Assembly: GCA_021202335.1 (NCBI GenBank)
Contig: JAJQDE010000054.1
Coordinates: forward strand, 1-56,601
Reading direction: 5' to 3'
Source: Lachnospiraceae bacterium
Lineage (GTDB): Bacteria > Bacillota > Clostridia > Lachnospirales > Lachnospiraceae
Length of the DNA: 56,601 bases
Under the pieces are notes generated by a model that worked only from the letters and a program-made list of their open reading frames with translations, ran no database searches and was not told where the DNA came from. This document shows, piece after piece, positions 2,972-56,601 of this stretch; the first letter of the stretch is position 1, and every line of letters begins with the position of its first letter. A program made the position numbers and the translations under genes.

Positions 2972-3946
2972 ATGAAGGACGGATTTGGCAGGGAAATAGA
3001 TTATTTGCGGATATCGGTCACGGACAAGTGCAATCTGCGGTGTAAATACTGTATGCCGCAAAACGGGGTGGATAACATACCGCACGGGGATGTGCTTTCG
3101 CTGGAGGAGCTTTACCGCGTCGTGCGGATTATGGAGCCGCTCGGTATAAAAAAGCTGCGCTTTACGGGAGGTGAGCCGCTTGTGCGCAAAAACCTTGCAA
3201 AGCTGATTGGCGACGTGAATTCCATTCCCGGAATTGAGGATATCGCGATGACGACGAACGGCGTGCTTTTGCGGGAAAATCTGGATGCGCTTGCGCGCGC
3301 GGGCTTAAGGCGCGTAAATATAAGCCTTGACACCTGCGACAGGCAGACCTTTGAGCGCATTACGGGCTATGACGGTCTGGAGCGCGTCATGAATGCGATA
3401 TATGCGGCATCGGAGGCGGGAATGCAGGTGAAGCTGAACTGTGTGCCGTGCAGGGAGCTTAATGGGGACGGTATAGACGCGCTTGCGCAGCTTGCCCGTG
3501 ACAAAAGGCTTGACGTGCGTTTTATTGAGCTGATGCCGATTGGCTGCGGAAGAAGCTTTCACGGAATCGCTTCGGAGGAAATACTTGCCGGGCTGAAAGC
3601 AAAACACGGTCCATGTAAGGAAGCGCCTTGCGAACGGCGCGGCGAAACGGCGCGGTATTATCTGTTTGACGGATTTTTGGGAAGGATAGGCTTTATCAGC
3701 CCGATGTCGCACAAATTCTGCAGTGACTGCAATCGCGTGCGCCTTACGGTCGAGGGGCGGCTTAAGCTGTGCCTTCATTATAACGATGGAATTGAGCTTA
3801 AGCCTCTTTTGAGGGGCGGGAAAAGCGATGAGGAAATCAGGGAACGTATTTTGGCGGCGGTGAGGCGAAAGCCGCAGGCGCATGCCTTTTCGGAGCATGA
3901 CGGCAGCAACGCGGATAAAAGAAAGATGGTGCAGATTGGCGGCTAG
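2972..3946 (+). CDS. moaA: GTP 3',8-cyclase MoaA (molybdenum cofactor biosynthesis)
   Basis: Radical SAM enzyme that, with MoaC, converts GTP to cyclic pyranopterin monophosphate, the first step of molybdenum cofactor synthesis. Seen in the 324-residue product: the N-terminal SAM cluster CNLRCKYC (Cys20, 24, 27), the TGGEPL motif, the C-terminal second cluster C-x2-C-x13-C (Cys250, 253, 267), and a terminal Gly-Gly, known in the family to be needed for activity. The start at 2972 has GGAGGG seven bases upstream; the in-frame ATG at 2942 overlaps modC and is less likely. No moaC, moaE, moaD or moeA is in the window. The stop codon lies at the edge of stem-loop element F. Confidence 0.95.
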   Translation: MKDGFGREIDYLRISVTDKCNLRCKYCMPQNGVDNIPHGDVLSLEELYRVVRIMEPLGIKKLRFTGGEPLVRKNLAKLIGDVNSIPGIEDIAMTTNGVLLRENLDALARAGLRRVNISLDTCDRQTFERITGYDGLERVMNAIYAASEAGMQVKLNCVPCRELNGDGIDALAQLARDKRLDVRFIELMPIGCGRSFHGIASEEILAGLKAKHGPCKEAPCERRGETARYYLFDGFLGRIGFISPMSHKFCSDCNRVRLTVEGRLKLCLHYNDGIELKPLLRGGKSDEEIRERILAAVRRKPQAHAFSEHDGSNADKRKMVQIGG

Positions 3947-4090
3947 TGTGAGAAGAATTTCTAACGCTTGCAGCAAGGGCTGTTTCGCGAAGAAATTCTA
4001 AATCTCACACGGCAAATTTGCGCGGGGCGCAAATTCGCGGGCTTTGAAATAGAGGGAAATTCGCGGTTTTGAGAAGAAATGAGGATTATG
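3946..4090 (+). repeat. Divergent stem-loop leader element, copy F, after moaA
   Basis: Seen: a long hairpin (GTGTGAGA + AGAATTTCT pairing with AGAAATTCT + TCTCACAC, arms 3946-3962 and 3991-4010, 17 bp with a three-base bulge) is followed by GGC and a 9-bp hairpin AATTTGCGC/GCGCAAATT (4015-4023 and 4027-4035). The outline (GTGTGA...TCACAC hairpin, then CGGC, then a second hairpin, then a Shine-Dalgarno and ATG) matches elements A, B, C and H, but the sequence is diverged and the second loop is only GGG, so no loop-to-leader pairing is visible. AAATTCGCGG occurs twice (4031, 4057). Membership in the family is inferred. Confidence 0.5.
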
Positions 4091-19353: not shown

Positions 19354-19406
19354 GCAACAGGATATGGAAATATCAGTCGGGATGTGGTAAAATAAACCAT
19401 ATACGG
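19354..19406 (+). promoter_or_regulatory. Sortase promoter, duplicated copy 1
   Basis: TGGAAA (19365-19370), 17 bases, TAAAAT (19388-19393) with an extended -10 (TGG before it). The 53-base block 19354-19406 matches 21758-21810 without gaps at 46 positions, the last 23 of them identical. The matching block lies before the surface protein gene, so sortase and substrate probably share control. Confidence 0.7.
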
Positions 19407-19436: not shown

Positions 19437-20252
19437 ATGCAAAAAAGAAGGGCGCTTCGGCTTGTAAGGGCGGCGCTTTTGCTGATTATGCTGGCGTGCC
19501 TGTTTGGGCTTGCGCGGGAATACATTTTGTCCGTAAGGCACCAAAGGGCGCAGGCGAAGATAACAGATGCCTTGACGGCGCAGGAGGAGCTGCCGTCTGT
19601 CACGGAAACGCAGGAGTCCGAATCGGAGCCTGTGCCTGAAACGCAGACGGAAAGCGACGGCGAAAAAGAGCCTGCCATCATTGACAGGCTTGCGGATTTA
19701 TATGCGCAAAACAACGATTTGGTCGGGTGGCTTTCCATTCCGGGCATGGAGATAGATTATCCCGTTATGCAGTGCGCGGACAACGAATACTATCTCCACC
19801 ATAATTTCTATGGCGAGGAGGACAGATACGGCTGCCTGTTCGTCAAGGACATTGCGGATGTCGATACCCCCGGCACGAATTTTATCATATACGGGCATAA
19901 CATGAAGGACGGCAGTATGTTTGGGGATTTGGACGCGTACCGGGAGGAAGCGTTCTACCGCGAGCATACAAAGCTTAACTTTGAAACGCTGTATGAGGAG
20001 CGAACCTATGAAATCATGGCGGTATTCCTCTCGCACGTATATAAAAGCGATGAGGAAGGGTTTCGCTACTACGGGTTTTATCAGGCGGACACTGAGGAAG
20101 AATTCCTTGACTTCTATGACAACGTAAAGGCTTTGGCGCTTTACGACACGGGAGTTGAGGCGGCATTTGGGGACACCCTTCTGACCCTCTCTACCTGCGC
20201 CTACCACGAGGAGGACGGCAGGCTTGTTGTTGTGGCAAAGAGGGTAGTGTGA
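19437..20252 (+). CDS. srtB: Class B sortase
   Basis: Membrane transpeptidase that anchors surface proteins to peptidoglycan, 271 residues. Seen: one N-terminal membrane segment (about residues 9-28), a Glu/Thr/Ser-rich linker, then the sortase fold with catalytic His in IYGHNMKDGSMF, Cys in TLSTCAYHEEDGR and Arg in GRLVVVAKR. The YGHN and TLSTC context is class B. AAGGGGG lies before the ATG. The surface protein gene at 21868, with a matching promoter and an EPKTGD sorting motif, is the obvious substrate; the intervening ATPase gene is likely a later arrival. The stop codon lies inside hairpin 1 of stem-loop element B. Confidence 0.93.
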   Translation: MQKRRALRLVRAALLLIMLACLFGLAREYILSVRHQRAQAKITDALTAQEELPSVTETQESESEPVPETQTESDGEKEPAIIDRLADLYAQNNDLVGWLSIPGMEIDYPVMQCADNEYYLHHNFYGEEDRYGCLFVKDIADVDTPGTNFIIYGHNMKDGSMFGDLDAYREEAFYREHTKLNFETLYEERTYEIMAVFLSHVYKSDEEGFRYYGFYQADTEEEFLDFYDNVKALALYDTGVEAAFGDTLLTLSTCAYHEEDGRLVVVAKRVV

Positions 20253-20381
20253 AAAATAAGCTCGATAGCTTATTTTTCACACGGCTATTTGTGCAAAAGT
20301 GTCACAAATAGCTTTGATGGCAGACGCAAATCTGATATTTGCGTCGCCCCGTCGCGTAAAACGCTCCGGAATAGAGGGTAG
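20239..20381 (+). repeat. Stem-loop element, copy B, flanked by a 9-bp direct repeat
   Basis: Seen: hairpin 1 has perfect 15-bp arms (20247-20261 and 20268-20282); hairpin 2 has 10-bp arms (20284-20293 and 20303-20312) with loop CAAAAGTGT; hairpin 3 has 9-bp arms (20323-20331 and 20337-20345); then CGCGTAAAACGCTCCGG. AGAGGGTAG flanks it on both sides (20239-20247 and 20373-20381). No rightward gene follows: the next gene is convergent. This is the only long class 1 copy whose hairpin 2 loop no longer complements ACGCTCCGG (20361-20369). The sequence at 21813-21842 reads like the same site without the element. Confidence 0.75.
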
Positions 20382-20392
20382 AATAATTAGAT

Positions 20393-21757: not shown

Positions 21758-21842
21758 GCAGCAGGTTATGGCAATATAATTAGGGCTGTGGTAAAATAAA
21801 CCATATACGGATTTGTTGCCGTGGCAAAGAGGGTAGAATAAT
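21758..21842 (+). promoter_or_regulatory. Surface protein promoter (duplicated copy 2) fused to a sortase gene tail
   Basis: TGGCAA (21769-21774), 17 bases, TAAAAT (21792-21797): a near copy of the sortase promoter block (46 of 53 positions). Two bases after it, 21813-21836 matches the last 24 bases of the sortase reading frame (20224-20247) with two differences. The segment therefore looks like a duplicated sortase locus with its middle deleted. AATAAT then leads to the AGAGGAG ribosome binding site of the surface protein gene. Confidence 0.7.
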
Positions 21843-21867: not shown

Positions 21868-24800
21868 ATGGATAAGCTGATAAAATGTCAAACAATTTTT
21901 TACAAGGGGCTGGCGATTTTTCTGGCAGTCGCGCTTATTGTAAGCCAAAACGAGTTTGTATCGCTCGCGGCGGAAAGTGCGGAAGCTGAAACGGAAGCCG
22001 TGTCGGAAAGCGCGGAAGCTGAAACGGAAGCCGTGTCGGAGAACGCGGAAGCTGAAACGGAAGCCGCAGCGGAGAGCGCGGAGCCGGAGCAGAGCGAAAA
22101 TGACGAAACGGAGCAGTATGCGCCGCTTGAAAGCGATACCGATATTGAAACCGCTGCCGAAACCGAGCCGGAGGATGTTGATTACAATACCGGGGGGGGG
22201 TATTTCGAAAGAAGAAACACAGGAAGCTGAAACGACTAAGGAAGAGGCTGCGGACTTCGAAACGACAGCCGGAGTGGATGCGGCGGAGAACGGAAGCGTG
22301 GGGGACACGTTTGATGATGGGACGTATACATACACGGTTACTTCGGCTGACGCGGGCGATTTGCAGGTGGAGGTAACGGGGCTTGTGGCTGGAATTTCGA
22401 CTGTTACGAATCCGACGATACCATCGGCAGTGAACTATAACGGAGATTCTTATGCAGTGAAACAGATAGGGGAGAAAGCATTTTATAATGAGTATAATGA
22501 GTATAATGGACTGACAGGAAATCTTACGATACCGAATAGTGTGACGAGCATAGGAGATTACGCATTTTATAAGCGCAGAGGACTAACAGGAGATTTGACA
22601 ATACCAAACAGTGTTACAAACGTAGGAGATCACGCGTTTGGTGGATGCGATGGATTTACTGGAAGCCTGACGATATCGAATAATTTGACAAGTATAGGAG
22701 AAGGCGTGTTTAGTTCGTGCAGCGGGTTAACAGGAAACCTGATAATACCGGACAGTGTGACAAACATAGGATATTCCGCATTTGCCGGATGCAGCGGATT
22801 AACAGGAAGCTTGACAATACCAAACAGTGTAACAAGCATGGGGGATTATGCGTTTTTGGAATGTAAAGGTTTGACAGGTCTGACATTATCTAGTGGATTG
22901 ACGAGTATAGGAATATGTGCGTTTTCGGAATGTAAAGGACTAACAGGAAATCTTACGATACCAAGTAATGTGGCAAGTATAGAAGCTGATGCGTTTGTAA
23001 ATTGTAGTGGCTTGACAAGCCTGACATTATCTAGTGGATTGACGAGTATAGGAAATGGTGCTTTTTATGTATGTAGTGGACTAACAGGAAACCTTATAAT
23101 ACCGGACAGTGTAACGGAAATAGGTGATGAAGCGTTTGCAAGAACGGGAATATCATCAGTAAAATTATCAAACAATATGACGAGCTTATCTTCGGGCGTT
23201 TTTTATAATTGTGATAATTTGGATAATGTAGAAATACCTGGTGGTATTAAAGAAATTGGAACATTTGCGTTTTGGGGATGCAACAATCTGTCCAATATAC
23301 AGGTATATGCAGGAATTTCAATTGGTGATTACGCATTTAGGTATTGCGATGCTTTGGAGCAGCTTAAAATTGTTATGCCTGACAGCGTGGACTTGATTAC
23401 GCTGCTGTATGACGAAACCGATGGCGGCAGACAAAAATGGTTTGATGGCTGCCCCAGTGACCGCTATATCAATTTTTTGGCGGCTGACGGCACCGAACTA
23501 AGTACAATCTCCACCCCAACGCTGGAGCAGGCAATAAATGCGTATAAAAGTGTAGACGACGGCGATACAAGCGATAATCTGTGGTATGGATGGAAGCTGT
23601 CGGCTGCGGGAAATTCGGGCATCAGCATAGTTGTACTCAAAGATGGTCTTACATGGTTAAATTGTGATAAAAAGTTTGCTTTGAAAGAGCAAGACAACGC
23701 GAACGCAAGTTATATTACGGATTATGAAACGGTAAGTGTACCTGACGGAACCTATGATATATATGAAATAACGGAAAGCGGAGAGTATGTTGATATCCAA
23801 ACTAGCCGTTATATACCTCCTGATGAGGATAACATCACTTTACATTTATATTATTACACAGTGACATTTTATGACGATGCGGTTGAATACGGAAGCGATA
23901 CGCCTTGGAAGCCGCAAATAGTTCCGTATAATACTTGTGCAGAAGAACCTGAAGAAAATCCGGTTAAGGATGGATATACTTTTAAAAGATGGGTGACGAT
24001 AAATGATAATGGAACCACTAATTTTAGTTTTGGCACAAGAATTACAAAAAAGACGGATTTATATACAAGCTGGACGGCAAACAAATATTCCGTGTCAGTC
24101 ACGGTTTATAAGGATGGTGAGAGTTGGGAGAATAGCGGTAAAGAGTTTGCTTTTAAGAATAGCAGTTATTCCGGGTCGAGTCCGATACCGAACGGAAGCT
24201 ATGAAATATATGATAAAAATGACTCGGTATATTTCACTGATTGGATAGATACAGGTGTTGAGGTGACGGTAGATGGGAGTGATACAACGGCTGAGGTATA
24301 TTATTATACAGTGACATTCTGTGATGAGAATGGAAATACATATTATGGACCGAGATCACCCAAAATGATACCAAAAGGTCAGAAGGTAACCTGCCCTACG
24401 AATCCTACAAAGACCGGTTATACCTTTGCAGGGTGGGTTACAAAGAACGCGAATAATGAGGAAGAGAAATTTGACTTTGAAAATACAGCAATCGAGAGCA
24501 CTATATATTTATATGCAACTTGGACAACCCAAGCATATTCGCTTGGCATAACCGTAAACAAGGACGGTGCGGAGTGGACAGACCACGGTAAAACCTTTGT
24601 CCTGACCTCTGACAGCGGCTCAAGCTTCATAAGCGATTATACAAGCCTGACAAACGGCACATACGAAATCTACGACGCAACTGGGGCAACAGACAGCACA
24701 GCCTACATAGACACGGGCGTTCCGGTGACGGTAAACGGTGAAGCGGCGACTGCGACAATAGATTATTACACCGTGACCTTCTATGACGATGGCACTGCAT

Positions 24801-26368
24801 ACACGGATGAAACAGCGCAGAAATCGCAGATAATCCTAAGCGGTCGTACGGCGGCCGCGCCGGAAATCCCCGTAAAAGAGGGTTATACCTTTGCGGGCTG
24901 GGTGACAAAGGATGTAAACGGCACGGAAACGCCATTTGACTTTGAAAATACCCAAATCACGGCAGCGACCGCGGTCTATGCGGGCTGGACAGCCGACACA
25001 TATCCCGTGACGCTGGAGGTGCGAAAGGACGGCGCGGAGTGGGCAGACCACGGCAGGACGTTCCAGATCAGGGACGCGTCGGGGAGCACAGCCGGTCCTG
25101 AGGACAAGCTGACGCAGGGGACATATGAAATCTACGACGTGACGGGACAGGGAACGGCGGTCGATACCAATGTGGAGCTGTATGTCACGGCGGCGGGCGA
25201 AAACAAAGCCGTTATAAACTATTACACCGTGACCTTTTATGACGGCGAAACAGCCTATGATGAAACCGCCGCGCAGAAACCGCAGATAATCTTAAGCGGT
25301 CAGTCTGCGACCGAGCCGGCAGCGCCCGAAAAGGACGGCTATACCTTTTCGGGGTGGACGACGTTACCGGGCGGCTCCGAAGCCTATGATTTTACGGCAG
25401 CGGTAGTTTCCTCAACCGCCGTCTATGCGGGCTGGATAGCAAATGCAGCCACGGCTTGGACCATCACTGCAACGGCGGGAGAGGGCGGCAGCATCTCGCC
25501 GTCAGGGAGCGTATCGGTCGAGGCGGGTGCGAATCCAATTTTTACCATTACGCCCAATGAAAATCACCGCATCAAATCCATAACGGTGGACGGAGCGGAG
25601 CTTGCTTCGGACGCGACGACGGGCGTATACGTCCAAAACGACGCGTACAATGTGAACGAAGTCAGATACTATACATTCTATAACGTGCAGGAGTCCCACA
25701 GCATTGCTGCCGCCTTTGAGGAAAGCGGCGGAACCGAGGAAAGCAGCGGAACCGAGGAAAGCAGCGGCGCTGAAGAAAGCAGCGGAACCGAAGAAAGCAG
25801 CGGCGCTGAAGAAAGCAGCGGAACCGAAGAAAGCAGCGGAACCGAAGAGAGCAGCAGCACCGAGGAAAGCAGCAGCACCGAGGAGAGCAGCGAAGCTTCC
25901 AAGAGTGAAACCGGCGGCGGCAGTGATGATGATGGCGACTCGGACGACAGCTCGGACAGCGGCGCCCAAACTGCGGCTTCGAGTGATAACACCATAAATA
26001 CCATAGAAGCAAGCGCGGCAGCGGTAAGCGAAGCCGTATCTCCGGCACAGGAGCAGCCCGCACCCGGCGCGGCATCCGTGCCCGATAACGAGCCGAAAAC
26101 GGGAGATGCCTCACACGTCGAAATGTATGCGACAGTCGCCATGATATCGGGACTTTTATACATCATGCTCTATTTTGCGGACAAAAAGCACGGCATGACC
26201 GAGGACGAAAAGAAGAAAAAGGTGGCGGCGCTCGTGAAATGGGCGCGTTCGGGCAGCCGCTTCAGAAAATACGTGGCGCTGACGCTCATCTTCTTCCTGC
26301 TTGCCTATTATCATGGCATCGGAAAATACATCTGCGCCGAAACGTCGGAGTGCTCGAAATCGTTTTAA
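21868..26368 (+). CDS. BspA-like LRR/InlB-repeat surface protein, reading frame broken at a G9 tract
   Basis: Large cell-wall protein, probably an adhesin. Frame 1 (21868-22230) gives a signal peptide (about residues 1-34) and three 11-residue repeats ESAEAETEAVS. At 22192-22200 nine G's shift the frame; everything after lies in another frame, open to 26368. With eight or eleven G's one chain of about 1,500 residues results. The second frame has about 13 LRR_5 (BspA-type) repeats with IPxSVTSIGDYAF, four Listeria-Bacteroides-type (Flg_new) repeats with YTVTFYDDG and GYTFAGWVT, a GTEESS repeat tract, then NEPKTGD plus a membrane segment (sortase signal). Oddly, about 80 more residues with a second membrane segment follow. 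The LRR part is more A+T-rich than its ends. Phase variation, decay or a sequencing indel are all possible. Confidence 0.85.
21970..22080 (+). repeat. 33-bp tandem repeats encoding ESAEAETEAVS
   Basis: Three copies of a 33-bp unit containing GCGGAAGCTGAAACGGAAGC encode a Glu/Ala-rich linker after the signal peptide. The period is a multiple of three, so copy-number change keeps the frame. Confidence 0.75.
22192..22200 (+). repeat. G9 homopolymer at the frame break
   Basis: Nine consecutive G's after ACC (Thr). The upstream frame (signal peptide side) and the downstream frame (LRR side) differ by one base here. Eight G's would read DYNTGGGISKEETQ, which continues the Glu/Thr-rich composition on both sides. 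Confidence 0.9.
25727..25895 (+). repeat. 18-bp tandem repeats encoding GTEESS
   Basis: About nine units of roughly GGAACCGAGGAAAGCAGC encode a GTEESS/GAEESS/STEESS tract just before the wall-anchoring region. Such acidic Ser-rich stalks are common wall spacers; the period keeps the frame. Confidence 0.85.
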
Positions 26369-26408: not shown

Positions 26409-26476
26409 AGGGGTGAAAACAGACAATGTTTGTTTTTGATGGCATTATGTCGCGTAAAACGCTCAGAAATGGGGAT
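26409..26476 (+). repeat. Truncated stem-loop leader element, copy E
   Basis: Only the 3' part of class 1 is present: TTTGATGGC (26436-26444), then GTCGCGTAAAACGCTC (26449-26464) with the small GCGT-AAA-ACGC hairpin, then the Shine-Dalgarno ATGGGGATTAAT. AAAGGGG at the left edge (26408-26414) resembles AATGGGG at the right. Hairpins 1 and 2 are missing, so the proposed loop pairing cannot form. Confidence 0.55.
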
Positions 26477-26480
26477 TAAT

Positions 26481-30334: not shown

Positions 30335-30460
30335 GGAGGCAGAGTGAAAAATAAATTTTTCACTCGGCAAGTTTGTGACTGCGCGCTGCAAAGCAACGCA
30401 TAGCGTTGCCTGCACAAACTTGCTTTATGCGCAAAGAGCAGCGCAGAAAAGAGGTAAACA
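30335..30460 (+). repeat. Stem-loop leader element, copy H (class 2), before glgP
   Basis: Seen: GGAGG at the left edge (30335-30339); hairpin 1 arms 30342-30352 and 30355-30365; CGGC; hairpin 2 with perfect 11-bp arms GCAAGTTTGTG (30367-30377) and CACAAACTTGC (30413-30423). Its loop holds GCGCTGC (30383-30389), the exact complement of GCAGCGC (30438-30444) just before the Shine-Dalgarno GAGG (30451-30454). Inside the loop is a further 8-bp stem, AGCAACGC/GCGTTGCC-type (30391-30409). A competing local hairpin TGCGC/GCGCA spans 30428-30445. Confidence 0.75.
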
Positions 30461-32836: not shown

Positions 32837-32977
32837 GGAGGATAGTGTGAAAAATAAGCTCGATAGCTTATTTTTCACACGGCTATTTGTGCCGGAGCGT
32901 CACAAATAGCTTTGATGGCAGACGCAAATCTGATATTTGCGTTGCCTCGTTGCTAACGCTCCGGAATGGAGATTAAG
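32837..32977 (+). repeat. Stem-loop leader element, copy C (class 1), before ugd
   Basis: The best-preserved copy. GGAGGATAG at the left edge; hairpin 1 has perfect 15-bp arms (32845-32859 and 32866-32880); hairpin 2 has 9-bp arms with loop CCGGAGCGT (32892-32900); hairpin 3 has 8-bp arms ACGCAAAT/ATTTGCGT (32922-32929 and 32935-32942). ACGCTCCGG (32956-32964) is the perfect 9-base complement of the hairpin 2 loop and is followed at once by the Shine-Dalgarno AATGGAG and ATG. CGTT-GCT-AACG is a competing local hairpin. Confidence 0.8.
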
Positions 32978-34144
32978 ATGAAAATAGCAGTAGCAGGTAT
33001 AGGGTACGTGGGGCTTTCAAACGCCATACTTCTTTCGCAGCACAATGAGGTGGCGGCGGTGGATGTGTTCCAAGAAAAAGCGGACATGATAAACAACAGG
33101 AAATCGCCGATAGTTGATAAGGAAATCGAGGAGTATCTTGCCGAGAAGGAGCTTAACCTTACGGCGACGATAGACGGTGAGTCGGCGTATAAGGACGCGG
33201 AATATGTAATCATAGCCACGCCAACCAATTACGATCCTGATAAGAATTATTTCGACACAAGCTCTGTAGAGGCAGTCGTGGAGCTTGTGCTTAAGGTAAA
33301 CCCAAACGCCGTGATGGTGATTAAGTCAACCGTTCCTGTTGGCTATACACTGGGCTTGCGCAAGCGCTATGGCGTTGACAATATCATTTTCTCACCCGAG
33401 TTTTTGCGCGAGGGCAGGGCGCTGTATGACAATTTATACCCATCAAGGATAATCGTGGGCGAGCGTTCGTACAGGGCTGAGGTTTTCGCGGACTTACTTA
33501 AGGAAGGCGCGATAAAGGATGACATTCCGACGCTCTTTACCGATACGACTGAGGCGGAGTGTATCAAGCTTTTCTCAAACACCTATCTTGCGCTGCGCGT
33601 GGCGTATTTCAACGAGCTTGACACCTACGCGGAGATGAGGGGGCTTGACACGAAGCAGATTATAGAGGGCGTAGGGCTTGACCCCAGAATCGGGACGCAT
33701 TACAATAACCCCTCATTTGGCTACGGCGGCTACTGTCTGCCAAAGGACACCAAGCAGCTTCGGGCGAATTTTGAGAATGTGCCGAACAACCTTATCTCGG
33801 CAATCGTCGATTCAAACAGGACGAGGAAGGATCACATTGCGGACATGATTTTGGCAAAGCATCCGAATATTGTCGGCGTTTACAGGCTTACGATGAAAAC
33901 AAATTCCGACAATTTCCGTCAGTCGTCAATTCAGGGCATTATGAAGCGTATCAAGGCAAAGGGCATCGAGGTTGTAGTCTATGAGCCGACGCTGAAAGAG
34001 GACAATTTCTTCCGCTCAAGGGTGATACGCAGCCTTGACGAGTTCAAGAAAATGTCTGATGTCATCATAGTAAACCGCGTGACGGACGAGCTTAAGGATG
34101 TGGAAGAAAAGGTATATACAAGAGATATTTATGGAAGGGATTAG
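32978..34144 (+). CDS. ugd: UDP-glucose 6-dehydrogenase
   Basis: Oxidises UDP-glucose to UDP-glucuronate with two NAD+, a precursor for capsule or wall polymers. The 388-residue product has the NAD fold [10 protein letters not shown] at its N-terminus, the conserved [21 protein letters not shown], and the catalytic cysteine in [14 protein letters not shown] at 32978 is chosen because GGAG lies six bases upstream and the family start MKIAVAG fits; ATG at 32966 would place the Shine-Dalgarno inside the gene. It has its own promoter. Confidence 0.95.
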
Positions 34145-45672: not shown

Positions 45673-45745
45673 CAATTTGTGCCAGAGCGTCACAAATTGC
45701 CTTGATGGCGTCTTTCGCGTAAAACGCTCCGGAAGGAGGAATTAC
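45673..45745 (+). repeat. Stem-loop leader element, copy D (class 1, short), before tex
   Basis: Hairpin 1 is absent. Hairpin 2 has 9-bp arms (45673-45681 and 45691-45699) with loop CCAGAGCGT (45682-45690), which pairs at 8 of 9 positions with ACGCTCCGG (45724-45732). TTGATGGC follows hairpin 2, hairpin 3 is missing, and the GCGT-AAA-ACGC hairpin (45717-45727) is present. The Shine-Dalgarno AAGGAGG comes next. Confidence 0.7.
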
Positions 45746-48164: not shown

Positions 48165-48187
48165 AGTGTCTGTAAATAAATAAGGAA

Positions 48188-48324
48188 ATTCTTCGGGGCA
48201 GGGTGAAATTCCCTACCGGCGGTATAGTCCGCGACCCGTATTTGCGCAATGGAAAAGACGCGTTAAATGCGGCTGATATGGTGAAATTCCATAACCGACA
48301 GTAAAGTCTGGATGAGAGAAGAAT
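48188..48324 (+). promoter_or_regulatory. FMN riboswitch (RFN element)
   Basis: The conserved RFN parts are all present: GGGGCAGGGTGAAATTCCC, TACCGGCGGT, the variable stem, GGTGAAATTCC, and ACCGACAGTAAAGTCTGGATGAGAGAAGA. The closing stem is ATTCTTC (48188-48194) with GAAGAAT (48318-48324). FMN binding would stop expression of ribU through the terminator at 48378. Confidence 0.97.
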
Positions 48325-48377
48325 GGTATTTTTTGAATGATGTTTTGCGCATGATGCGCGGATTTGGAAAGGTATCA

Positions 48378-49217: not shown

Positions 49218-49245
49218 TTGAAAAATGTGTCAAATAGGATATAAT
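49218..49245 (+). promoter_or_regulatory. purL promoter
   Basis: TTGAAA (49218-49223), 16-base spacer, TATAAT (49240-49245). The leader to purL is about 190 bases and holds stem-loop element I. No purine riboswitch was recognised. Confidence 0.7.
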
Positions 49246-49378
49246 GAACGCAGGGGCTGCGTTCATCAGCAAGTTTCTGCGAAACTTGCGGTATGCGCAA
49301 AGGGCAGCGCAATAGTTGTGATATAGGGCGAAGCCCGCGAATGAGAGAGTCGCAGGCTCTCGAATGGTGCACGGCGGA
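49244..49378 (+). repeat. Divergent stem-loop leader element, copy I, in the purL leader
   Basis: Hairpin 1: ATGAACGCA/TGCGTTCAT (49244-49252 and 49258-49266). Hairpin 2: GCAAGTTTC/GAAACTTGC (49269-49277 and 49281-49289) with loop TGC. Then TATGCGCAAAGGGCAGCGCA (49292-49311), the class 2 3' part. GGGC-GAA-GCCC (49327-49336) and GAGAG/CTCTC stems follow. The hairpin 2 loop is too short for the pairing seen in G and H, and the purL Shine-Dalgarno lies 117 bases further on. Confidence 0.6.
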
Positions 49379-55163: not shown

Positions 55164-55211
<48 letters not shown>

Positions 55212-55357
55212 GGACGCTAATCTTGTCTTATTTTGCCGTTATATATATTTGATAAAATCAAGGGGTGATTTGCGTGGCGAAAGCAGGCGCGGGTCGCCCC
55301 TTTGGCTTTGCAAATCCCGGATTACATATAACCATAACTCGCAGAAAGGAGCCACCT

Positions 55358-56601
55358 ATGAATAATAAAATTAAACCTTCAAATAAATTATTAAGCCTGC
55401 TGTTGGCGGTGTGTCTGATTGCGGGGACGTGTTTTGGAAGTACATACGCAAACCCGTATGCGACAGCATACGCGCAGGAAGAGGATGAAGCTGCGGTTGA
55501 AACGACTGCGTCCGGAACGGACGCGGAATCGACAGCGGAATCCGACGACAGCGGGGAAGCTGCGGATTCTGACGCGGCGGCAGAATCAGAAAGCGGTAAA
55601 GAAACGCTGACAGAAGCCGAAAACTCTGAAGCGTCAGAAGCGGAAACGTCAGAATCAAAAGCGTCAGAAGCGGAAACATCAGAATCAGAAACGTCAGAAT
55701 CAGAAACGTCAGAATTAGAAGCTTCCGAATCGGAAAACACGGAATCAGAAAACACGGAATCAGAAAGCACGGAATCGGAAAATTCGGAAACGGAAAGCAC
55801 GGAATCGGAAAATTTGGAATCGGAAAGTGAATCGGAAACAGAATCAGAAACGGAAACAGACACCGAAGAGGCTGCGCTGTGCAGTCACGGCAATCCCGAG
55901 GGCGAGTGCGCCATCTGCGATATAGAGGAGCGTATCGCCGCTTTGCCGAGCGTGGAAGAGCTTGACGGGATGGACACGGAAGAGCAGAGCGATATATATA
56001 ATGAAGCGTCGGACATTTGCGACGCTTATTACGAGTTGAGCGACGAGGAGCAGGAGCAGGTATCGAATATTGATGATTTGTGGGATATTTTGGATTATTT
56101 CAGCGGCGCAATTTCGACGGCTGATGAAGATAGCTCGACAGGCGATTTTAGCGTCACTGTTGGTGATGACGGCAGCAGCGACGGTTACAGCTATGAAAGC
56201 AATCTGCTTACCATATCGGGCAGTGGTGAATATACAATTTCCATGGCGGACGAAACTGAAAGCACCTCATCAGACAGGATAAAGGTTACATCGGGAAGCG
56301 ATGTCACAATCACGCTGTCGGACGTGAGTATCACAAGCTCAAGCGGCTCGCCGTTTGAGATAAACGCGGAGGGCGATGTCACGATAAAGCTTAGCGGCGA
56401 TAATACGCTTAAATCGACCGCGAGCGGCTATGCCGGATTGCAGAAAAGCTCGACATCCAACACGCTTACGATAACAAACGAGGATGATAACACGACTGCC
56501 AGCCTGAGCGCGACGGGCGGCAGCAATGGAGCGGGAATCGGGGGCGGTAAAAATGTAAGCGGCAGCAATATCACGATAAGCGACGGAATAGTGACCGCGA
56601 C
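55358..56601 (+). CDS. Secreted surface protein with carbohydrate-binding (Cthe_2159-like) domain, partial
   Basis: First 414 codons; the gene continues past the window. A signal peptide (MNNKIKPSNKLLSLLLAVCLIAGTCF..., cleavage probably near residue 31-39) is followed by an acidic Ser/Glu/Thr stalk with ESETS/ESENTE repeats (about 70-165), a short Cys segment (CSHGNPEGECAIC), and from about residue 260 a beta-rich repeat region (ITLSDVSITSSSGSPFEI, GDNTLKSTASGYAGL, GGSNGAGIGGG) that resembles the Cthe_2159-type carbohydrate-binding family. ATG at 55358 follows AAAGGAG; an in-frame GTG at 55274 with AAGGGG could extend it but would spoil the signal peptide. It is a probable adhesin or polysaccharide binder. 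Confidence 0.85.
   Translation, partial: MNNKIKPSNKLLSLLLAVCLIAGTCFGSTYANPYATAYAQEEDEAAVETTASGTDAESTAESDDSGEAADSDAAAESESGKETLTEAENSEASEAETSESKASEAETSESETSESETSELEASESENTESENTESESTESENSETESTESENLESESESETESETETDTEEAALCSHGNPEGECAICDIEERIAALPSVEELDGMDTEEQSDIYNEASDICDAYYELSDEEQEQVSNIDDLWDILDYFSGAISTADEDSSTGDFSVTVGDDGSSDGYSYESNLLTISGSGEYTISMADETESTSSDRIKVTSGSDVTITLSDVSITSSSGSPFEINAEGDVTIKLSGDNTLKSTASGYAGLQKSSTSNTLTITNEDDNTTASLSATGGSNGAGIGGGKNVSGSNITISDGIVTA

Follow-up and report, generated by a model that had tools for sequence, protein, structure and literature searches.

A family of pseudoknotted RNA-like repeats inserted at ribosome-binding sites in Lachnospiraceae, with a possible translational relay

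REP/RAYT palindromes and the MITEs of the IS200/IS605 group are short hairpin repeats without a gene of their own, and translational riboswitches are known to have pseudoknots on the side of the Shine-Dalgarno sequence (SD). The BOX element of pneumococcus is, in the passages of the paper at hand, a modular hairpin repeat with optional middle modules that can contribute open reading frames (PMC3049150). YPAL, or RU-2, of Yersinia is described, again in passages, as having internal inverted repeats, no TA ends and target duplications of 3-26 bp (PMC2229807). The closest known system in logic to the one described here is that of the mycobacterial interspersed repetitive units (MIRUs). According to the part of the source available, MIRUs are apparently mobile, insert at start codons, where a spacing of -4 nt couples an ORF of the repeat to the gene, and their insertion likely has minimal effect on expression (PMC12548453).

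Here we describe a family of elements of ~70-180 nt, copies of which are dispersed in a 56,601-nt stretch of DNA from a Lachnospiraceae bacterium (the window; contig JAJQDE010000054.1, positions 1 to 56,601). They share with MIRUs, as far as the available part of that account goes, the nature of a sense-orientation mobile repeat at translation starts. The comparison is by description only, and it also brings out differences: here the SD rather than the start codon appears to be the target and flanks both sides, what lies between is an RNA with a pseudoknot and hairpins that can be exchanged, and other bacteria are the hosts. Nor do the leader frames here keep an overlap with the host start at -4 nt, their ends being variable among 84 copies. 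The likeness to YPAL/RU-2 lies in internal inverted repeats, the lack of TA ends, putative target duplications of variable length and the comparison of empty with filled sites, although the passages of that paper describe neither SD targeting nor a leader frame (PMC2229807). The likeness to BOX is in modular hairpins with optional modules, but BOX is over-represented between convergent genes, and placement at SDs is not described in the passages (PMC3049150). The elements resemble REP/RAYT repeats and IS200/IS605 MITEs as short geneless hairpins, and they are, like MITEs, non-autonomous, short, dispersed and missing from the corresponding sites of relatives; unlike the former, they stand in a draft genome in which no Y1 transposase was found. 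With translational riboswitches they share a conserved structure and a pseudoknot adjoining the SD, but the element is mobile, its genes are unrelated, its site is not conserved in 29 of 29 orthologous loci for groEL and likewise for der, and it has no Rfam match at threshold. In the literature searched, with subscription papers largely outside it, nothing described a repeat that inserts at SDs in this manner, and two further papers gave nothing decisive (PMC2267715, PMC4833913). The family is large, real and, as far as the literature searched reaches, undescribed, and its strategy is already known from MIRUs.

The reference copy, C (32837-32977; all features on the plus strand), illustrates the layout. 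It is preceded by an SD copy, GGAGGATA (32837-32844), which from its sequence, the flank statistics and the empty sites at other loci would be the original SD side of the host gene. Hairpin 1 (32845-32880) is a near-perfect palindrome, GTGTGAAAAATAAG...CTTATTTTTCACAC, supported by covariation. A candidate leader frame (32847-32909) starts with a GTG in hairpin 1 and stops with a TAG at the end of hairpin 2 (32881-32910). The loop of hairpin 2, CCGGAGCG (32892-32899), is the 5' strand of a pseudoknot, whose 3' strand is the tail CGCTCCGG (32957-32964), directly before the new SD. Between the two lies hairpin 3 (32917-32946; helices 4 and 5 of the alignment), an optional and exchangeable module that is missing in L021 and L025. 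The downstream SD copy, recognized from its sequence, is GGAGATTAAG (32968-32977), and the ATG at 32978 opens a gene for a UDP-glucose/GDP-mannose dehydrogenase (Pfam).

The earlier note on this DNA had counted about nine copies in the window, A to I. Of these, A to H read as members or as partial or divergent members, whereas I looks like a separate repeat and is not counted in the family. Copies B, C and A are near-copies of a single type, scoring 157, 156 and 126 bits, respectively, with R1, a covariance model built from 20 own-genome copies that included B and C among its rows. Copy D, which lacks hairpin 1, scores 40 bits, H, of another subtype, 22, and the decayed E 19; F, G and I gave no R1 match at E up to 1. 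All of A to H are on the plus strand. Copy G (11-130) has an H-type core behind a different first hairpin and precedes a solute-binding protein gene (SBP_bac_11; Pfam). Copy A (1071-1215) is upstream of a transport permease gene (blastn, Pfam, R1). Copy F (3946-4090), before a MOSC/MoCF gene (Pfam), is a divergent member with the same layout and stems of its own, and its sequence on reading had no clear pseudoknot. Copy E (26409-26480; R1 18.7 bits), without hairpin 2, precedes an alpha-amylase/CBM48 gene (Pfam), and copy H (30335-30460), an H-type element, precedes a carbohydrate (glycogen-type) phosphorylase gene (blastn, Pfam, R1). Copy D (45673-45745) is a minimal core of hairpin 2, tail and SD before tex (Pfam, R1). 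The Pfam results on the window genes are consistent with the gene names given earlier, and the targets look unrelated. Copy B (20239-20382) is a full element away from a gene start, with AGAGGGTAG on both flanks (a 9-nt direct repeat); its sequence runs into the end of a sortase gene, and the gene that follows has the opposite orientation. A 53-base direct repeat, 87% alike and ending GTGGTAAAATAAACCATATACGG, is found at 19354-19406, where it precedes the sortase gene, and at 21758-21810. The large ORFs of the window contain low-complexity direct repeats (25681-25932, 55595-55819 and 21966-22082, with 18-, 15- and 33-base spacing), and a GACA tetranucleotide run, a possible slippage site, lies at 55164-55219, shortly before an ORF at 55265.

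Most elements had also been said to end exactly at an SD. The probable reason is that insertion is targeted to the SD. Of the copies in the window, B does not fit in position, since no gene starts there, and neither does copy I (49244-49378), which has no SD at its end and lies 63 nt from the purL start. Matches like copy I occur elsewhere in the same genome (C33:87716 and C16:2855, making at least 3 copies in all), not at SDs. The repeat is palindromic, CAGCAAGTTTCTGCGAAACTTGCG..., and its end resembles an H-type tail.

Many more copies exist outside the window. In the organism's own genome (2.74 Mb, 99% complete), blastn with C found 41 places and with H 40, none in common, which gives 81 places after merging, 2 of them I-like; the palindrome's own minus-strand matches and short satellite hits were not counted. 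Near-identical copies stand at unrelated genes. Some contigs of the draft start or finish inside a copy (C14, C25, C60). In other gut genomes of Lachnospiraceae type, at least 103 stretches of genome_contigs contain a 29-base hairpin-1 pattern; among the matches listed, the records were mostly labelled Lachnospiraceae, Roseburia, Acetatifactor and similar. Within the order, the covariance model matches 34 of 392 genomes, the own one among them, and these belong to two families and 19 of 172 genera, a patchy distribution; 18 of the 34 carriers have at least 8 matches. Blastn alone was positive in 8 of 60 relatives, own included. A search of the window against Rfam gave no match to the element at the gathering score and only an ordinary FMN riboswitch elsewhere in the window (48185-48327, 118.8 bits). 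When four loci were compared with Rfam at E up to 5, an element was overlapped once and weakly, in L058, by TD-2 on the opposite strand (26.8 bits vs a threshold of 48.7, E 1.7), which was taken as chance. The proposal of a dispersed, modular and structured family at ribosome-binding sites is borne out by the 81 places in the genome, by the matches in other genomes of Lachnospiraceae type, by the covarying stems described below and by the lack of an Rfam match at threshold.

Most copies stand before genes. At 55 of 60 own loci, the match end and the start of an ORF of at least 70 aa are no more than 60 nt apart. In other genomes, a downstream SD and an ORF start are present in 79 of 91 usable copies vs 20 of 87 on the opposite strand (13 of 104 copies were too short and were left out). 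Of the remaining 12 copies, 10 also end, by eye, in an SD-like sequence and ATG, followed by an ORF that is shorter or broken. The set found by the model and missed by the hairpin-1 pattern comprises 24 loci, all from other genomes; in each of the 22 shown in register, a start codon by eye directly follows the element, and the SD is clear in 21 and weak in L270. The downstream SD is usually 5-6 nt before the host start codon, the best match being there in 93 of 123 copies. Copies at no long gene are B, L125, L128, L132 and L137, and the copy at C45:83281 is also away from a gene start. The target names groEL, groES, der, coaD and flagellin are our assignments from the first residues.

The element is an insertion and not an ancestral leader, because orthologous groEL and der loci are without it. 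In the groES-groEL gap, the own genome has an H-type copy, and 29 other loci of the same genus have, by eye, no element, the SD and ATG being separated by a few bases (34 of 38 genomes matched; 30 loci fetched, 1 filled and 29 empty, with 190 nt shown each; L182 has undetermined bases beyond ~50 nt). In five of these loci (L177, L187, L188, L190 and L192), the gap contains another palindrome, in variants of GAGAACGCAAAGGGCGCGTTCTC. At der, one locus is filled (own) and 29 of the 30 fetched have, by eye, no element at the start codon (37 of 38 same-genus genomes matched). The relatives read, for example, AGAAATGGAGATATAGAATGG, and the own genome reads AGAAATGGAGATTA, then the element, then GGAATGGGAGATTATAAAATGG. 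In the relatives L214-L216, the SD of der is preceded by a palindromic repeat of another kind (TGTGAAATC...GATTTCACATGGCGAATTTGTGC), its hairpins in a similar order.

The flanks point to the SD as the likely target, since SD-like sequence is present on both sides of the element. The longest word shared by the two flanks averages 5.67 vs 4.77 in shuffled flanks (88 copies, 0/2000), and 6.42 vs 5.05 in the 36 own copies (0/2000). The flanks also share oddities, such as GGTGATTA in L011, GGGGGATTA in L027 and L095, and AGAGGGTAG in B. Exact flanking repeats are present in only part of the copies, and many flank pairs do not match; possibly the SD is partly supplied by the element itself. Tandem copies abut exactly, head to tail, at L258 (1360-1500/1501-1636) and L272 (2426-2570/2571-2713). 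The position of the elements, their copy number, their stems and the absence of the insertion in relatives are firm. The insertion nature, the SD-like sequence on both sides, the pseudoknot and the start codon in hairpin 1 are additions to the earlier note.

The element is a folded RNA whose stems covary. The stems were tested in 103 model-aligned copies (93 loci outside the own genome) in an alignment fitted to these same stems; seven of 100 loci, with inserts in the hairpin-2 loop or without hairpin 2, had been left out before alignment, and the E-value was stricter. Stem cells are paired in 98.0% vs 84.1% after shuffling, with 461 double-change cells vs 114, and 36 pairs show double changes vs 19.7 (0/500). 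In hairpin 1 (helix 2), 13 of 15 pairs have double changes. G-U exceeds A-C in hairpin 2 (58:15), the pseudoknot (45:21) and hairpin 3 (14:4), in cells that are not independent of one another, and the excess points to a sense-strand RNA or single strand. In hairpin 1, wobble pairs are scarce and G-U is not in excess (8 G-U, 12 A-C), as if this hairpin were kept as a DNA palindrome.

The covariance model used for alignment did not contain the pseudoknot, a pairing between the hairpin-2 loop and the strand that directly precedes the new SD. The cells of the pseudoknot are 92.7% paired vs 83.9% in shuffles, with 68 double-change cells vs 16.0 (both 0/500) and a covariation of 0.292 vs 0.147; registers slid along the sequence are 24-50% paired. 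With no row dropped (127 rows, some of them antisense matches of the palindrome), the values are 92.1% vs 83.4% and 68 vs 16.1. The number of pseudoknot pairs with a double change is not above shuffles (5 vs 4.4, 229/500), and covariation within the main loop/tail type does not reach significance (210 and 1426 of 3000; 77 of 156 items parsed). The shuffles leave relatedness in place, so that the independent changes in the pseudoknot are few, namely the subtypes. Examples of the loop/tail pairs are CCGGAGCG/CGCTCCGG, CCGAAGCG/CGCTTCGG, TTCTGAGCGA/TCGCTCAGAA, TCAGAGC/GCTCTGA, CCGCAGGCAC/GTGCCTGCGG and GACGAGC/GCTCGTC. The longest complementarity between tail and body, in 156 of 180 items (24 had no start), is 7.29, compared with 5.22 when tails are shuffled and 5.64 when they come from other types; for 130 of the 156 items it lies in a hairpin loop, vs a mean of 92 with shuffled tails. 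Among 40320 permutations of eight loop/tail types, only the true pairing is as good; these types were chosen partly after the pairing had been noticed, and the shuffle tests carry more weight. The pseudoknot is likely and well supported across subtypes, though by few independent changes. In predicted folds, the SD is unpaired with a probability of 0.36, which becomes 0.58 when loop and tail are held together (control 0.35), with a rise in 39 of the 56 usable copies out of 104; a narrower folding of 9 copies gave 0.29 and 0.71. This modeling suggests that the pseudoknot may also free the new SD.

A second feature of the element is the putative reading frame that starts in hairpin 1. In 104 copies, the codon there is GTG in 54, TTG in 44, ATG in 4, GCG in 2 and CTG in none; its first base covaries with the base it pairs with, yet is confined to G, T and A. 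In L274, hairpin 1 offers no start codon. The best match to an upstream SD is 4-8 nt before this codon in 94 of 123 copies, and AGGAGG is matched at 5 or more of 6 bases in 60 of 123 on each side of the element, against a background of 0.13. The frame is open for at least 57 nt in 106 of 115 copies and 31 of 35 representatives, and for at least 55 nt in 79 of 84 copies. Of these 84, 46 leaders end more than 25 nt before the gene, 20 end within 25 nt or overlap it and, of the other 18, 13 read into the gene in frame by an automatic count and 5 end early. With hairpin 1 held fixed, 30 of 34 leaders are open vs 25.2 in shuffles (27/1000 as high), a modest signal, and the chain is found in 29 of 34 vs 24.2 (36/1000). 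Shuffling of whole bodies gives 31 of 35 vs 15.8, which overstates the signal because hairpin 1 is common by descent, the fixed-hairpin test being fairer. An early stop (within 45 nt) is present in 4 of 40 own copies and 3 of 104 others; in L002 and L028 (the copy before der), one extra A stops the leader after three codons. In the main type the leader stops ~65-75 nt before the gene, so a hand-over to the gene would need a second frame. A ribosome relay through the leader is plausible but unproven, with moderate support from the reading frames.

The explanation that we favor, and hold to be fairly probable, is that of a short, non-autonomous, mobile, RNA-carrying family that inserts at SDs, possibly with a translational relay. 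The element would enter in sense orientation at a purine-rich SD, repeating roughly 8-11 nt of it. The old SD, now upstream, would then face the GTG, TTG or ATG at the base of hairpin 1, and the 3' end of the element would place an SD before the host gene's own start codon. Between the two SDs would lie hairpins 1 and 2, the optional hairpin 3 and the tail that pairs with the hairpin-2 loop. Ribosomes binding the old SD may read the leader across both hairpin 1 and hairpin 2 and be handed over at the gene or close to it; in addition or instead, the pseudoknot may stop the tail from pairing with the new SD. By either route the insertion would cost the gene little, and the element could therefore spread through essential operons. 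The SD as target, leader translation, re-initiation and near-neutrality for the host are the inferred parts of this scheme.

As an alternative, an ordinary MITE- or REP-like repeat could insert blindly, and selection could have spared the copies at SDs since they brought along an SD of their own. The elements are indeed non-autonomous, hairpin-rich and dispersed, and some copies (B, C45:83281) are away from gene starts. However, their ends, GTGTGAAAAA and CGCTCCGGAAT, are by eye not mutual inverted repeats that would join the two ends, and the flanking repeats include the SD itself, being SD-like even off gene starts (AGAGGGTAG at B, GAGAGGTA at C45:83281). We regard blind insertion as rather unlikely. 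A cis-regulatory RNA recruited to many genes is a slightly weaker candidate. In such a translational switch, the tail would pair with the hairpin-2 loop to leave the SD free or with the SD to close it, in response to leader translation or a ligand. A pseudoknot directly before the SD, and the higher computed accessibility of the SD when loop and tail are held, are what such a device would have, but it would not be expected to serve genes that look unrelated, to be missing from 29 orthologous loci each of groEL and der, or to be complete in copy B, where no gene starts; by eye, moreover, pairing of the tail with the SD is not kept in every subtype.

About as doubtful, or a little more so, is an extension of the favored explanation, in which an SD-targeting class with a relay moves by way of a folded single strand (RNA or ssDNA) and selection acts on the pseudoknot as a substrate of mobilization, not as a means of controlling genes. 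The element would then be a bacterial analogue of a SINE that lands at the ribosome's address. Far less probable than any of these is a leader RNA inherited vertically in the clade: strong covariation of the stems is what it would predict, but it is contradicted by the empty orthologous sites, and the patchy distribution and the near-identical copies at unrelated genes also speak against it.

Several candidate movers were considered for the family and rejected. The Y1 (IS200/REP-type) transposase has 0 matches in the own genome and, among 22 carriers (draft genomes), was found in 9 and is lacking in 13. A reverse transcriptase is present in 13 of 22 carriers, with one in the own genome. Carriage by phage was set aside, the hairpin-1 pattern, which covers the hairpin-1 subtype only, having no exact match in viral_contigs. 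In the search for an autonomous partner, 22 further places were read, all of them short, decayed or cut by a contig end, and in none was an internal gene seen; among these candidates and places, no mobilizing enzyme or autonomous copy was found.

The family matters for the annotation of the genomes that carry it. The 13 of 84 leader frames that run in frame into the gene, by the automatic count, imply that start calls in annotation may be wrong. With its hundreds of copies in many subtypes, it is also a natural library of 5' leaders that can be inserted and have a pseudoknot beside the SD, and it would be useful for studying the effects of structure and leader translation on protein output in gut Clostridia. 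If the favored explanation is right, essential operons (groEL, der, glgP, tex) are open to a repeat that enters at a single short motif needed by most genes and then returns it.
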